Source: an uncultured Alphaproteobacteria bacterium (GTDB lineage Bacteria > Pseudomonadota > Alphaproteobacteria > CAAHEQ01 > UBA3637). Taken from it: a stretch of DNA of 32,419 bases. The stretch spans positions 1 to 32,419 of the forward strand of contig CALXXX010000017.1 in assembly GCA_944392795.1 (NCBI GenBank). Reading direction: 5' to 3'. The notes under the pieces were generated by a model. It saw nothing but the letters and a program-made list of their open reading frames with translations, was not told the origin of the DNA and did not search any database. The translations under genes and the position numbers were made by a program. Position 1 is the stretch's first letter; every line of letters begins with the position of its first letter. Positions 23,712 to 32,419 of the stretch are shown here, in pieces.

Positions 23712-26180
23712 ATGAAATACCATTTACGCAATAAAAATCATTTTTTAAATGAATCTGGTCGCAGTATGCTAGAAATGCTAAGTGTCTTAGCTATTTCCGG
23801 CATATTATTATTGGCCGGATTTATGGGCTTTAAGTATGCTATGAACAAATATCATGCTCAAATTATAATACAAGATATTATGCTTGTTGCTAGTGCTGTT
23901 GAAACATCAGACATCTTCGAAAAAGCGAGAGATGGCGATCTTTTATCTTTACCTGAACTTGACATGACAACCACACGCACCGGAAATCCGATATATGCTT
24001 ATAGATATGATAAAGAATTATTTATTGTTTCCGTAGAAGATATTTCCAAAAAACTTTGCATTCAAATTTTAAAAGAGCCAAATCCATCAGACACATATAT
24101 TGATGTCAACAATGAGACAAGCAGAGGTCATACAGAATCTGAAATATGTTTACCGGAAGGAAATATACTTGATTTTTATTTTGATTTATATCACACAAAG
24201 GAATGGTGTGGTGGGGAGTTATGCAAAGATACATTTATCTGTGATACAGCAACTCAAAGCTGTCAATGTCCCGAGAACAAACATAATGAGAACGGTATTT
24301 GCGTCTGTAATGAGGGATTAGATACATGCGGGAACGGTTGTTATGAACCCTGCGATCAACCGGGAATGACCGGTTTTCGAGATCCAAACAATTGTCAATG
24401 CAAATGTGACGTCTCTTTAGGATTTGAAGAACTGGCACAAAATGGATATTGTACGTGCCCGATTGGTTATATAAATATGGACGGCGTTTGTAAACGCTTT
24501 GGCTGTTCCGGAGGAACACCAGGCGGAAACGATTGGAATTGTTGTATCGGAACGACAGAAGAAGAATGCAAACAAACAGACCCCTCTGCATGCGGACAGG
24601 GATGTACACAACAAGGGCAAAGTTGTCAATATGGTTTTTGTGCAGATATGTGTCCGGAAGGAACGACCTGGGGCAGTTTAGGAAGTGTTTCGACTTATGG
24701 GAAACGTATGCTTTATGGGTGTATAAATGGCTCCATCGGTTGCTATCAGCGAATGGGAACCGTTTATTGTGTTGACATGTCACGGACGGTTAGCTCAAAC
24801 ATGCATCCAAGATGCGGACAACAATGTCAATATGACGGAACTGATTGTGTCTCGGGAGATTGTGAAAACAGGTGTTTAACCTTTGGGGATGATTTTATCT
24901 GGCAATCTTGTGAAAGCACCAGTGCAGAAGCTTTTTATGGATGTTATATGACAGATAAGAACTTATATTGTCAAAAACGCGGAACAAAATATGAGTGTTA
25001 TAATCAAAGTTGTAAAGTATGTGCTGAAAGCTGTGAGTATAATGGCACATCATGTCATATCAATATGTGTCTTCCGGAAGACAATGCCTGTCCAGAAGGA
25101 ACGACTTGGGAAATAAAAGAAAATGGAAAATATGCTGGATATTACGTATGCCAATATCCCAATGGCTTTTATTGCGCTCAACAAAATCAAAGATGTCTAA
25201 CTAATGAAGATAAAATCTGTGGATCTAGCTGTAATCGCGGGAGCATATTAGATATAAATGCATGCCTTTATGGGACATGTAATGCTTCCGATTGTCCGGA
25301 AGGCCTTGTATGGGAATACTTTAGAACCGTTGATAATCACGTTTGTCTAAATCCAAACACTGGAGTCAAATGTTATCATGCGAATAAAGGTTATACATGT
25401 TACAATAATGAGAATAAATTGTGTGGTTCTAATTGCACGGATTATAACGCATCAAACTGCCCGAATTGTGCTACGTTTACATGCCCTTCCGGTTGGGAAG
25501 TCAGCAATAGTAGTTGTATCAATGGAGAACTTAAGTGCTTCTTAGATGGAAGCTCCAGTAGATGTATGCGTAATGGCCACACTTGCGGCACAGAATGTTC
25601 CTTAGACGGCACTTGTTCTGTCGGAGAATGTCTAGACACAACCTGTCCTAATAATTTGATCTATACATACTTGGGAATTGGCGCTTACGGATACTATGGC
25701 TGTCAAGATTTAGAACACAATGTTTTCTGTATCAAAAGTCAAGGGGCCTACAAATGTTATGGTCCGGATCTGGCTGTATGCGGAACCGGTTGTTCCAAAG
25801 ACGGAAAGTCTTGTTCATCCGGATTGTGTATCTGCCCTGACGGTCAAGAACTGATTAACGGAAATTGTCAAGTTATGTCATCAGATATTACTTGTTCTTC
25901 AGGAACATGCATGATAGGCAATCGATATTGTGGCACAGGCTGTAATGAAAATGGTGAGAATTGCCAAGTAGGCGCTTGTTCTGCCTCAGATGCTGCCTGT
26001 CCGACAGGAACCCATTTTGGACGTATTACAAATGAATTTTATGGTTGTATTCATGATGAAACTTTTATCAGCTGTTATCAACTCAGTGGAAATTATGTTT
26101 GCTTTAAAAACGGCACACAATGCGGCACCAACTGTCAAGCAGACGGAACAGGCGGCACATGTGATACCGGTTGCTATTAA
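23712..26180 (+). CDS. Giant cysteine-rich protein with type IV prepilin leader
   Basis: An 822-residue surface protein candidate. Residues 1-16 are a basic leader ending in G16. RSMLEMLSVLAISGILLLAGF follows, with E21 at the +5 position of a type IV prepilin (GFTLIE-like, but R at +1), so a PilD-type peptidase would cut after G16. A short pilin-like helix and head domain (about 40-160) is followed by a tail with about 90 cysteines in all. From about residue 315 there are seven or eight repeats of 50-75 residues of the form CPEGTxW ... YGCxxxxxxxxCYxxxGxYxC ... CGxxCxxDGxxCxxGxC. It probably assembles into or onto a pilus-like structure and is disulfide-bonded. The function is unknown. No other pilin gene is adjacent; the PilT-like ATPase at 1701-2840 is the only candidate partner in the window. 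Confidence 0.85.
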   Translation: MKYHLRNKNHFLNESGRSMLEMLSVLAISGILLLAGFMGFKYAMNKYHAQIIIQDIMLVASAVETSDIFEKARDGDLLSLPELDMTTTRTGNPIYAYRYDKELFIVSVEDISKKLCIQILKEPNPSDTYIDVNNETSRGHTESEICLPEGNILDFYFDLYHTKEWCGGELCKDTFICDTATQSCQCPENKHNENGICVCNEGLDTCGNGCYEPCDQPGMTGFRDPNNCQCKCDVSLGFEELAQNGYCTCPIGYINMDGVCKRFGCSGGTPGGNDWNCCIGTTEEECKQTDPSACGQGCTQQGQSCQYGFCADMCPEGTTWGSLGSVSTYGKRMLYGCINGSIGCYQRMGTVYCVDMSRTVSSNMHPRCGQQCQYDGTDCVSGDCENRCLTFGDDFIWQSCESTSAEAFYGCYMTDKNLYCQKRGTKYECYNQSCKVCAESCEYNGTSCHINMCLPEDNACPEGTTWEIKENGKYAGYYVCQYPNGFYCAQQNQRCLTNEDKICGSSCNRGSILDINACLYGTCNASDCPEGLVWEYFRTVDNHVCLNPNTGVKCYHANKGYTCYNNENKLCGSNCTDYNASNCPNCATFTCPSGWEVSNSSCINGELKCFLDGSSSRCMRNGHTCGTECSLDGTCSVGECLDTTCPNNLIYTYLGIGAYGYYGCQDLEHNVFCIKSQGAYKCYGPDLAVCGTGCSKDGKSCSSGLCICPDGQELINGNCQVMSSDITCSSGTCMIGNRYCGTGCNENGENCQVGACSASDAACPTGTHFGRITNEFYGCIHDETFISCYQLSGNYVCFKNGTQCGTNCQADGTGGTCDTGCY

Positions 26181-28863: not shown

Positions 28864-29511
28864 ATGCTTATTTTTCAAAGGAAGTATTTAATCATTTTAT
28901 ATTGCTTAGCATGTCTAATTATGACACCTTTTGCAAATGCGAAATCAATTAACCGACAAGCCTATAAAGTCTGTCAAACAAATGAAGAAGCTTATTGGAA
29001 TGGTTCTTCCGCTCAATGTTGCGAAAAATCAATCAAACAGGTACAAGGAACAGATTATTACACTTGTTGTGAAGAATGGCAAAATGCCTATTTTTATAAT
29101 GATGCAGTTATCTGCTGCAACGAAGATCCGAATAAGACCCCAGGAAATATTTGTTGTAAAGGGAAAGCTGACAATGGAATTGAAAAAGCATATGAACAAG
29201 GATGCTGTATAAACAATCCAGAAACTTCTCCTGAAGAAGAAACAGGAGATATGGCAACCGGTCAACTTTGTTGTAATGCATCTGCTCCTTATTACAGTGT
29301 TTGGCAAGAAATTGGCACGACAACAAAAAAATATGAATGCTTTAAATGTCAACCAGGACAAGTCAGTGATTTATGTGGCGCCGAAAAAAGGTACGCGTGC
29401 TGTCCGAATGGCTATACTGACTGGATTGAAACATGCTCAAGTTGGCAAATGGGTGCAGATGGAAATCTTTATTGTGGCGGTTGCTGGTGGAAAGATAGAA
29501 GTTGTTTATAA
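28864..29511 (+). CDS. Secreted protein rich in Cys-Cys pairs, copy 1
   Basis: A 215-residue protein that I cannot assign to a family. A Sec signal peptide (about 1-26, ending FANA) is followed by KSINRQAYKVC. The mature part has 22 cysteines, an even number. Fourteen of them form seven CC pairs (QCCEK, TCCEE, ICCNE, ICCKG, GCCIN, LCCNA, ACCPN) spaced through the chain; ECFKC and YCGGCWW give CxxC motifs near the end. It is therefore probably a disulfide-packed periplasmic or extracellular protein. There is no membrane segment after the signal. AAAAGG lies 8 nt before the ATG, with a promoter upstream and a strong terminator right after the stop. A second copy starts at 32270. Confidence 0.82.
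   Translation: MLIFQRKYLIILYCLACLIMTPFANAKSINRQAYKVCQTNEEAYWNGSSAQCCEKSIKQVQGTDYYTCCEEWQNAYFYNDAVICCNEDPNKTPGNICCKGKADNGIEKAYEQGCCINNPETSPEEETGDMATGQLCCNASAPYYSVWQEIGTTTKKYECFKCQPGQVSDLCGAEKRYACCPNGYTDWIETCSSWQMGADGNLYCGGCWWKDRSCL
28933..28991 (+). repeat. Direct repeat, copy 1 of the CC-rich gene 5' region
   Basis: Matches 32361-32419 at 52 of 59 positions, without gaps; the match stops only because the window ends. Confidence 0.85.
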
Positions 29512-29934: not shown

Positions 29935-32154
29935 ATGAGCATAGAACCGAAAGAAGAACAAATTCAAAACTCAAAACTAGCAGATGCTTTATCAGAAAGA
30001 TATTTAGCATATGCCATGTCTACAATTGTTTCCCGTTCTTTGCCGGATGTCCGAGATGGATTAAAACCCGTTCATCGTCGTTTATTATACGCAATGCGAC
30101 ATTTAAAGTTAGATCCTAAGTCAGGCTTTAAGAAATGCGCGCGAGTTGTTGGTGATGTTATTGGTAAATATCATCCACATGGAGATGTGGCCGTATATGA
30201 TGCGATGGTTCGATTAGCTCAGGATTTTGCTGTTCGATATCCGTTGGTTGAAGGGCAAGGGAACTTTGGCAACATTGATGGAGACAGAGCTGCTGCTATG
30301 CGCTATACAGAAGCTCGTTTGACAGAGATGGCCATGGCTTTAATGGAGGGACTAGACGATAACGCGGTTGATTTTGGCCCGACTTATGATGGTTCTGAAG
30401 ATGAACCCCTTGTTATGCCGGCATCTTTCCCCAACTTATTAGCAAATGGCTCCTCCGGTATTGCTGTCGGTATGGCAACGAATATTCCGCCTCATAATAT
30501 CGGAGAGGTGTGTGATGCTTTATCTTACTTAATTAAACACCCCGAGGCTGAAACAGCAAAGTTGCTTGATTTTGTTCAAGGGCCTGATTTTCCGACCGGA
30601 GGATTGCTTGTAGAAAGTCATGATACAATTGTAAAAGCCTATGAAAAAGGTCGAGGTTCTTTCAGAATGCGGGCTAAGTGGGAAAAAGAAATTTTATCTC
30701 ATGGACAATATCAGATTATTGTGACAGAAATCCCTTATGGTGTTCCTAAAGCTGATTTAATTGCACGTATTGCTAAGTTATTATTAGATAAGAAATTACC
30801 TCTTTTGGCTGATATTCGAGATGAATCAGCAGAAGAAATTCGAATTGTTTTAGAACCTAAAAACCGAACTGTAGAAGCTGAATTTTTAATGGAGCATTTA
30901 TTCCAAAATACAGACCTACAATCTTCTTTTCATTTAAATATGAATGTCTTAGATGCGGACTCAACTCCGAAAGTAATGAGTTTAAAGCAAGTTCTACAGG
31001 CTTTTTTAACTCACCGTATGGAAGTTTTAACTCGGATGTCCCATTATCGGCTGGATAAAATTACCCATCGTATGGAAGTCTTACAAGGTTTCTTAACAGC
31101 TTATTTAAACCTTGACAGAGTGATTGAAATTATTCGTGGAGAGGATGAACCAAAACCTGTTTTAATGCAGGAATTTCACTTAACAGATGTCCAAGTAGAA
31201 GCTATTTTAAATATGAAGTTGCGTTCTCTTCGTAAACTGGAAGAAATGCAAATTCGTGATGAATATAATGCGTTAAATGCGGAAAAAGATAGTTTGGAAG
31301 CTTTATTGGCTGATGAAAGTTTACGCTGGACAAGAATTGGAGAACAAATCGCGGATATCAAAAAACGGTTTGGACAAAAGACAAAATTAGGTGCTCGTAA
31401 AACAATTATTGCAGATGCTCCGATAAATATTGATGTACCAATTGAAGCGATGATTGAAAAAGAACCAATTACAATTGTTTTATCAGAAAAAGGATGGATT
31501 CGAGCTTTAAAAGGGCATGTCAACACGCAAGATGTCAAATTCAAAGAAGGTGACACTTTACAATTATCCTTACAAGCTCAAACAACGGACAAAATTTTGC
31601 TATTTGCCTCCAATGGTCGTTTTTACACCATCATGGGAGACAAAGTTCCGGGAGGGCGTGGTTTTGGAGAGCCTGTTCGACTTCAGATAGATTTACCTGA
31701 AAACGAAACGATTGTTGATATGATTATTTATCAACCAGAAACAGATTTACTTGTTGCTTCTGCAAAAGGAAAAGGATTTTATATTAAACAAAAAGATGTT
31801 GTGGCTCAAACCCGTTCCGGTAAGATTATTTTAAACTTAAGTAAAGGCGATAAAGCTAAATTCTGTTTACCTGTTTCCGGCGACAGCGTTGCTATTATCG
31901 GGCAAAATCGAAAATTGCTTATTTTTAAGTCCGATGAGATTCCTTTTATGGCGCGCGGACAAGGTGTGATTTTACAAAAATATCAAGGTGGCGGTGTTTC
32001 CGATATTGAATTTTTTAACCTGGCAGAAGGCATGCCATTTGCTTTTGGAAACGGTATCCGAATTGAACGAGACTTAACCCCTTGGCTTGGGAAAAGGGCT
32101 TTAGTCGGCAAAATTCCGCCTATTGGTTTCCCTCGCAGCAATAAGTTTAAATAA
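29935..32154 (+). CDS. parC: DNA topoisomerase IV subunit A
   Basis: The breakage-reunion subunit that, with ParE, unlinks replicated chromosomes. At 739 residues it is ParC-sized rather than GyrA-sized (about 850-900), and the shortened C-terminal propeller (about 500-735) fits that. The catalytic tyrosine is Y124 in AAAMRYTEARLT. The quinolone-determining loop reads HPHGDVAVYDAMVRLAQ (80-96), with V85 where E. coli ParC has S80 and D89 where it has E84. The N-terminal LSERYLAYAMSTIVSRSLPD is typical. GAAGG precedes the ATG. It is transcribed alone; no terminator hairpin is evident after the stop. Confidence 0.93.
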   Translation: MSIEPKEEQIQNSKLADALSERYLAYAMSTIVSRSLPDVRDGLKPVHRRLLYAMRHLKLDPKSGFKKCARVVGDVIGKYHPHGDVAVYDAMVRLAQDFAVRYPLVEGQGNFGNIDGDRAAAMRYTEARLTEMAMALMEGLDDNAVDFGPTYDGSEDEPLVMPASFPNLLANGSSGIAVGMATNIPPHNIGEVCDALSYLIKHPEAETAKLLDFVQGPDFPTGGLLVESHDTIVKAYEKGRGSFRMRAKWEKEILSHGQYQIIVTEIPYGVPKADLIARIAKLLLDKKLPLLADIRDESAEEIRIVLEPKNRTVEAEFLMEHLFQNTDLQSSFHLNMNVLDADSTPKVMSLKQVLQAFLTHRMEVLTRMSHYRLDKITHRMEVLQGFLTAYLNLDRVIEIIRGEDEPKPVLMQEFHLTDVQVEAILNMKLRSLRKLEEMQIRDEYNALNAEKDSLEALLADESLRWTRIGEQIADIKKRFGQKTKLGARKTIIADAPINIDVPIEAMIEKEPITIVLSEKGWIRALKGHVNTQDVKFKEGDTLQLSLQAQTTDKILLFASNGRFYTIMGDKVPGGRGFGEPVRLQIDLPENETIVDMIIYQPETDLLVASAKGKGFYIKQKDVVAQTRSGKIILNLSKGDKAKFCLPVSGDSVAIIGQNRKLLIFKSDEIPFMARGQGVILQKYQGGGVSDIEFFNLAEGMPFAFGNGIRIERDLTPWLGKRALVGKIPPIGFPRSNKFK

Positions 32155-32210: not shown

Positions 32211-32240
32211 TAGACAAGCCAACTATGAATTTGTTATACT
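32211..32240 (+). promoter_or_regulatory. Promoter of CC-rich secreted gene, copy 2
   Basis: TAGACA (32211-32216), 18 bp and TATACT (32235-32240). CTAGACAAG is shared with copy 1. The start point would be about 23 nt before the ATG at 32270. Confidence 0.65.
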
Positions 32241-32269
32241 TATTTTACCAACAAAATAAGGAGACGCAG

Positions 32270-32419
32270 ATGTTCATTTCTAACAAAATTACCCCCCCCC
32301 CCCCATGTTTTACCTAATCTTTTGATATATTTAATACTTTTTTCCTTTTTTTTCTTAACTGCAAATGCAAAAACAATTAATCGACAAGCTTATAAAGTCT
32401 GTAAAACGAATGAAAAAGC
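32270..32419 (+). CDS. CC-rich secreted protein copy 2, phase-variable and out of frame (3' end outside window)
   Basis: The start of a paralog of the gene at 28864-29511. AAGGAG lies 6 nt before the ATG. With the 13 C present, translation reads MFISNKITPPPPCFT and stops at 32315-32317. If one C is removed or two are added, the frame continues as HVLPNLLIYLILFSFFFL-TANA, an excellent signal peptide, then KTINRQAYKVCKTNEK. Over the 19 visible full codons beginning with the ANA of the signal, 16 residues match copy 1 (KSINRQAYKVCQTNEE), and 52 of 59 bases match. A signal peptide and homologous coding sequence preserved in one alternative frame argue for a switchable gene rather than a decayed one. 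A sequencing error in the homopolymer remains possible. Only the first 150 bp are visible. Confidence 0.75.
32292..32304 (+). repeat. Poly-C tract (13 C), candidate slipped-strand phase-variation site
   Basis: An uninterrupted run of 13 C within the first 35 bases of a coding region, in otherwise AT-rich DNA; I see no comparable G or C run elsewhere in the window. 12 or 15 C place the ATG at 32270 in frame with the signal peptide and the conserved mature sequence; 13 or 14 do not. Confidence 0.9.
32361..32419 (+). repeat. Direct repeat, copy 2 of the CC-rich gene 5' region
   Basis: Partner of 28933-28991. It lies beyond the poly-C tract and preserves the reading frame of copy 1. Confidence 0.85.

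Follow-up and report, generated by a model that had tools for sequence, protein, structure and literature searches.

A run of 13 consecutive C residues, close to the start of a gene for a Cys-rich protein at the end of a contig from an uncultured Alphaproteobacterium, is very probably a slipped-strand switch for translational phase variation, as judged from the sequence of the locus and its relatives. The tract sits in the 5' coding region, and one length class opens the frame. The stretch of DNA analysed (the window, 32,419 nucleotides) is the whole of contig C17 of the genome (G000; an assembly of 1.29 Mb in 41 contigs, 99.4% complete), and the gene runs off its end. An earlier note on this DNA had described a promoter, a ribosome binding site and an ATG followed by 13 C, all of which were borne out (exact positions in Table 1), as was closure of the frame after 15 codons at the present length, with the product MFISNKITPPPPCFT and a TAA stop at 32315-32317. 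With 12 or 15 C, the ATG at 32270 gives MFISNKITPPP(P) followed by HVLPNLLIYLILFSFFFLTANA and, beyond the expected cut, KTINRQAYKVCKTNEK, i.e. the leader, a hydrophobic stretch ending TANA (core Kyte-Doolittle value 2.55 over 15 residues) and a Cys-rich body; 11, 13 or 14 C give products of only 15-18 residues. That the same ATG opens a signal peptide with 12 or 15 C, and that the mature start resembles the protein encoded at 28864-29511, had also been claimed, and both points stand, but the latter gene is without a C-run.

Table 1. Features of the window relating to the proposed switch
Feature	Position	Strand	Basis
Putative promoter: TAGACA (32211-32216), 18-nt spacer, TATACT (32235-32240)	32211..32240	+	by inspection
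Ribosome binding site AGGAG	32259..32263	+	sequence; fits the AGGA-N-ATG-N-C9 pattern
Start codon and leader ATGTTCATTTCTAACAAAATTA (MFISNKI + A)	32270..32291	+	sequence
13-C tract, proposed switch	32292..32304	+	sequence
Remaining signal peptide, ON frame, HVLPNLLIYLILFSFFFLTANA	32305..32369	+	frame reading; cut expected after ANA at 32369, by inspection
Start of mature Cys-rich protein, ON frame; goes on in contig C26(-)	32370..32419	+	127-base exact overlap
Cys-rich paralogue without C-run, not switchable by such means	28864..29511	+	sequence comparison
Upstream neighbour, presumed topoisomerase IV subunit A-like (parC) gene	29935..32154	+	sequence

The final 127 bases of the window match the start of C26(-) exactly, the overlap starting precisely at 12 C. 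Because the contig names of a related assembly, G002, carry k127, this is probably the overlap that adjacent contigs of a k=127 assembly graph should share. Extending the contig across the join, a check proposed in the earlier note, left the ON frame open to 219 codons with 12 C; the product with 15 C has 220 residues. The longest A and T runs in the window are 8 and 9, respectively. A promoter block like that of the window is also found 5' of C7, C9, C25 and both C27 tract genes and, in the relative G001, parC is followed by a similar promoter-ribosome binding site block, of a different variant, the contig stopping just before the ATG. The window also encodes, at 23712-26180, an 822-residue Cys-rich protein without a C-run and with a weak prepilin-type N terminus (TIGR02532 below cut-off), which is akin to the switchable prepilin-like genes considered below.

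The Cys-rich product gave no match in Pfam or NCBIfam, nor in a sequence search of the PDB. A confident AlphaFold model of its G001 homologue (pLDDT 90.8) places a single helix in the signal-peptide part and is mostly β-strand elsewhere; Foldseek returned no match to this model at E 0.001, and the best VIA-align score (Z 7.3), to β-barrel membrane proteins, lies within the range of unspecific matches. The product may be a surface or secreted adhesin-like protein, as its signal peptide, its paired cysteines, the variability of the bodies and the type of regulation suggest.

The tract is one of a set. A search for further C/G runs, likewise proposed in the earlier note, gave 12 runs of at least nine C/G in G000, with about eight loci carrying the run behind a gene start. 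Every one is 11-15 long, and the runs are longer than chance allows for the genome, with 12 of at least 11 C/G found in 1.29 Mb compared with 0.03 expected from the composition of the window. Nine of the 12 fall at eight gene starts, the run lying 7-28 nt behind a ribosome binding site and ATG (seven loci with a readable gene, plus C7, where the contig ends inside an 11-C run after the same leader, and which was assigned by its upstream block). The Cys-rich tract loci are C8, C17 (with C26), C19, C27:32817 and C27:92741, and those called prepilin-like, from likeness by eye, are C9 and C22. In the window the first C of the tract lies 22 nt after the A of the ATG, a distance shared by most Cys-rich copies (19-28 nt in the remainder); on C25 the leader is similar and an A breaks up the run (8 C, A, 5 C).

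The other three runs in G000 are on C4, C11 and C34, the C4 and C11 tract regions both matching a single region of G001, C20:18878. As a separate observation, the C-runs at the C4 end (L069), the C11 start (L073), C34:49446 (L082) and G001:C40:1177 (L151) lie beside or inside inverted repeats, by eye terminator-like hairpins, with no obvious start codon, and their lengths differ from G001.

Placement of the tracts at gene starts is beyond chance and directional. When scored as a ribosome binding site and ATG within 40 nt opening at least 80 codons in one of three tract lengths, 4/6, 4/7, 10/42 and 4/31 eligible C-strand tracts qualified in G000, G001, G002 and a further genome, G017, respectively, compared with 0/8, 0/6, 0/46 and 1/31 on the G strand and 3.4% for random insertion of C12. 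The AGGA-N-ATG-N-C9 architecture is rare in the class, with any match in 36 of 385 genomes, and the reversed-pattern control gave at most one match per genome per strand.

Since the Cys-rich paralogues have either a long run or none, the family is divided into switchable and fixed members; in the other paralogues examined, including that at 28864, the longest C-run near the start is 2. Searches with the 28864 protein gave about 16 matches for G000, 13 for G001 and 22 for G002 (same genus), and few for the rest of the taxonomic family. In a scan of GTDB r220, which covered one genome per species and may have omitted records near the window's own genome, the Cys-rich family was found only in G001 and G002 (CASDQF01, CALXUB01; uncultured Alphaproteobacteria).

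Comparison with G001, which shares 97-99% DNA identity with G000 over long stretches and 91-95% in others, enabled matching of individual tracts (flanks 91-98% identical). The lengths, G000 versus G001, are 12 versus 10 (C19/C15), 14 versus 12 (C27 end/C39), 13 versus 14 (C34/C40), 12 or 15 versus 11 (C4 or C11/C20) and 12 versus 12 (C22/C6), i.e. length differs at four of the five directly matched loci, exact short-read lengths being uncertain. At coding loci in the window's genus, tracts range from 9 to 15 with mixed phase; copies with a C-run behind the start are seven in frame and seven out in G002, two and two in G001, and none and seven in G000. If phases were random, the chance of all seven readable G000 copies being OFF is (2/3)^7, about 6%, which weighs against the switch. 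All these lengths derive from short-read assemblies, which are unreliable at 12 C or more, so that single lengths may be off by at least one.

Contigs terminate within 130 bases of a tract much more often than chance would allow (6/12 in G000, 25/60 in G002), and some tails behind tracts look error-laden (the C11 start compared with the C4 end and G001 C20; C6:12155 and C36:13195 in G002). Such breaks are compatible with length variation in the population, and also with sequencing failure. The C17/C26 break, at 12 C, together with the 11-C run at the C7 end, was considered as proof of mixed tract lengths, and rejected because the breaks are explained equally well by another locus sharing the downstream sequence or by failed sequencing beyond long C-runs.

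Behind the tracts, the pairs compared give dN/dS values of 0.11-0.51 in the ON frame, some of them involving copies that were assembled out of frame, and the value is 0.32 for C17/C26 compared with the in-frame copy on G001 C25; the G001 copy homologous to the C26 body carries 12 C. The ON frames are thus under purifying selection, and copies whose assembled tract puts them out of frame are therefore unlikely to be dead.

In the proposed mechanism, polymerase slippage on the C-run would gain or lose C. At 12 or 15 C the ribosome would pass the proline-containing leader and enter the signal peptide, giving a secreted Cys-rich protein of about 219 residues; at other lengths translation would stop within 15-18 codons. 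With about eight loci behind shared or similar promoter, ribosome binding site and leader blocks, each cell would show a random subset of Cys-rich and prepilin-like proteins. We infer that slippage occurs in living cells, that the product is secreted, that expression switches, and that this has an adaptive role at the cell surface. It may be that transcript slippage enables leaky expression from any length, a point against phase variation. The earlier note's view of a contingency locus is supported by the frame, the ribosome binding site, the signal peptide, the open downstream frame and the selection on it, the presence of about eight loci and the length differences, but it was understated, in that the set is genome-wide and family-wide.

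Three other explanations have to be weighed against a phase-variation switch. Programmed slippage of RNA polymerase or the ribosome, whereby some constant share of the product would be in frame at any DNA length, is unlikely here, even though two genomes of another family of the class have arrangements that it could account for. In one (G053; L231-L239), all nine prepilin-like genes carry exactly 9 C behind the ATG, and a shift of one base, the same in each, puts them out of frame, a uniform offset that suggests programmed slippage, not switching; in the other (G194; L241-L243), all three readable genes also carry 9 C, and it is the other offset that puts each of them out of frame. The OFF state of all seven readable G000 copies, as assembled, is in keeping with this. 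A programmed signal would not, however, allow the range of 9 to 15 C and the mixed phase at coding loci of the window's genus, nor does it accommodate matched loci of close relatives that differ in length.

Slightly less likely still is an error of assembly or sequencing in the tract length, in which case 12 or 15 C would keep the gene constitutively in frame. The genome is a short-read MAG in which contig ends cluster at tracts and the tails behind them look error-laden, the C17/C26 graph overlap starts exactly at the ON length of 12 C, and the G001 homologue of the C26 body is in frame at that length. Miscounting nevertheless leaves unexplained both the long C-runs at the same place in many genes, in three related genomes and another genus, and the differing lengths at many loci, and a constitutive gene has no evident need for an unstable C12 run in an AT-rich genome. 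That the paralogue is dead and decaying, with the run as its frameshift lesion, is highly improbable: the window copy is indeed out of frame, but the promoter, ribosome binding site and leader are conserved, and the stop-filled downstream region that the earlier note named as a sign of a pseudogene was contradicted by 219 codons free of stops across the contig join and by the dN/dS values, both against the in-frame homologue and family-wide.

The 5' block may itself be mobile between loci. In G001, the C26 body and 9.5 kb downstream of it (97.2% identical) are preceded by a promoter and an upstream flank (about 1.2 kb) that belong to the C27:32817 locus; about 200 nt past the tract, identity to C27 drops from 0.97 to 0.55 (G001:C25, L220, compared with L079, L219 and the window end). 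This arrangement suggests either that the loci exchange via the conserved 5' block or that there is a misjoin in one of the two assemblies. The block and the tract are separable, because at L255 (G001:C17:5354) the same promoter-ribosome binding site block precedes a prepilin-like gene without a C-run.

Runs of C/G total 60 in G002 and 74 in G017, where G-runs lie directly behind an exact TTGACA in 13 and 16 of the tracts examined, respectively; the other three placements tested gave none. A TATAAT-like hexamer comes after the G-runs, and the downstream genes are in many cases prepilin-like; with spacers of 11-25 nt, such runs would be porA-like transcriptional switches. Examples, with G-runs of 9-16 and then the ribosome binding site and ATG of a prepilin-like gene, are L096 (G002:C5:71036), L167 (G017:C8:20329) and L183 (G017:C32:3584). 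The pattern TTGACA-N0-7-G9 occurs in 7 of 42 genomes of the family, compared with one match to the reversed pattern; a search for promoter-spacer G-runs in G000 found them absent. The prepilin-type domain TIGR02532 was detected in the product of G017 C2:7030 (24.6 bits, cut-off 16.3), Pfam N_methyl falling just below cut-off for a prepilin-like product. Beyond these families, a C13 tract lies early in a family 2 glycosyltransferase gene of G002 (L130, G002:C28:31038; PF00535, 61.3 bits), out of frame as assembled.

The two genomes with the most runs, both 93-94% complete, are without a detectable mismatch-repair protein (MutS in G002, MutL in G017). Mismatch-repair loss was rejected as a general cause, since G004, G011 and G031 are also without one of these yet have few runs, and G000 and G001 have both. 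The mutS neighbourhood of G000 has hardly any DNA match in G002 except for Cys-rich paralogues. It is conceivable, with slightly under an even chance, that these uncultured, small-genome Alphaproteobacteria have a two-tier contingency system, in which start-codon C-runs and promoter-spacer G-runs would act on two unrelated families, the Cys-rich secreted proteins of unplaced fold and the prepilin-like proteins, the 5' block would recombine and reshuffle the bodies, and the set would have expanded in genomes without a mismatch-repair gene.

The best precedents are from Neisseria, in which the pilC tract lies in the signal-peptide region and porA-type genes have the tract in the promoter spacer. 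The pilC1/pilC2 genes have a homopolymer in the reading frame (listed as genic G, 9-20), and opa genes have CTTCT repeats in up to 11/12 dispersed copies (PMC5953494). As with pilC, a homopolymer near the 5' end of a secreted-protein gene sets the frame; by contrast with the two pilC genes, there are many dispersed paralogues here, in a different class of Proteobacteria and with a Cys-rich product lacking a Pfam match. The likeness to opa is that of a dispersed, surface-type multigene family with an early repeat in each copy, inter-copy recombination being suspected here too, whereas the repeat is a homopolymer, not a pentamer, the protein is unrelated, and unrelated gene families share a similar block. 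The G-runs of G002 and G017, between the -35 and -10 boxes upstream of surface-type genes, resemble the porA type, but each of these genomes has them at many sites (about 13 in G002 and a higher number in G017), and G000 has none. Within the Alphaproteobacteria, phase variation of adhesins has been reported in Bartonella, with slipped-strand mispairing suggested (PMC8859334, PMC10936683); unlike the present set, that of badA involves repeat reshuffling or single frameshifts, without a genome-wide set of C/G-runs. No report of such a switch set in this lineage was found in the open-licence literature. The mechanism is of a known kind; the novelty appears to lie in its lineage, in how many loci are involved and in the two families targeted.

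A practical caution is that the C-run genes are precisely where assemblies of genomes like these break and where tract lengths may be miscounted. Genomes of about 1.2-1.3 Mb from uncultured Alphaproteobacteria carry 9 to 74 long C/G runs, many of them sited exactly like switches of this kind. With two target families named, and variation traceable in metagenome reads, the question of phase variation can now be put to the test in a lineage that is not a known pathogen.
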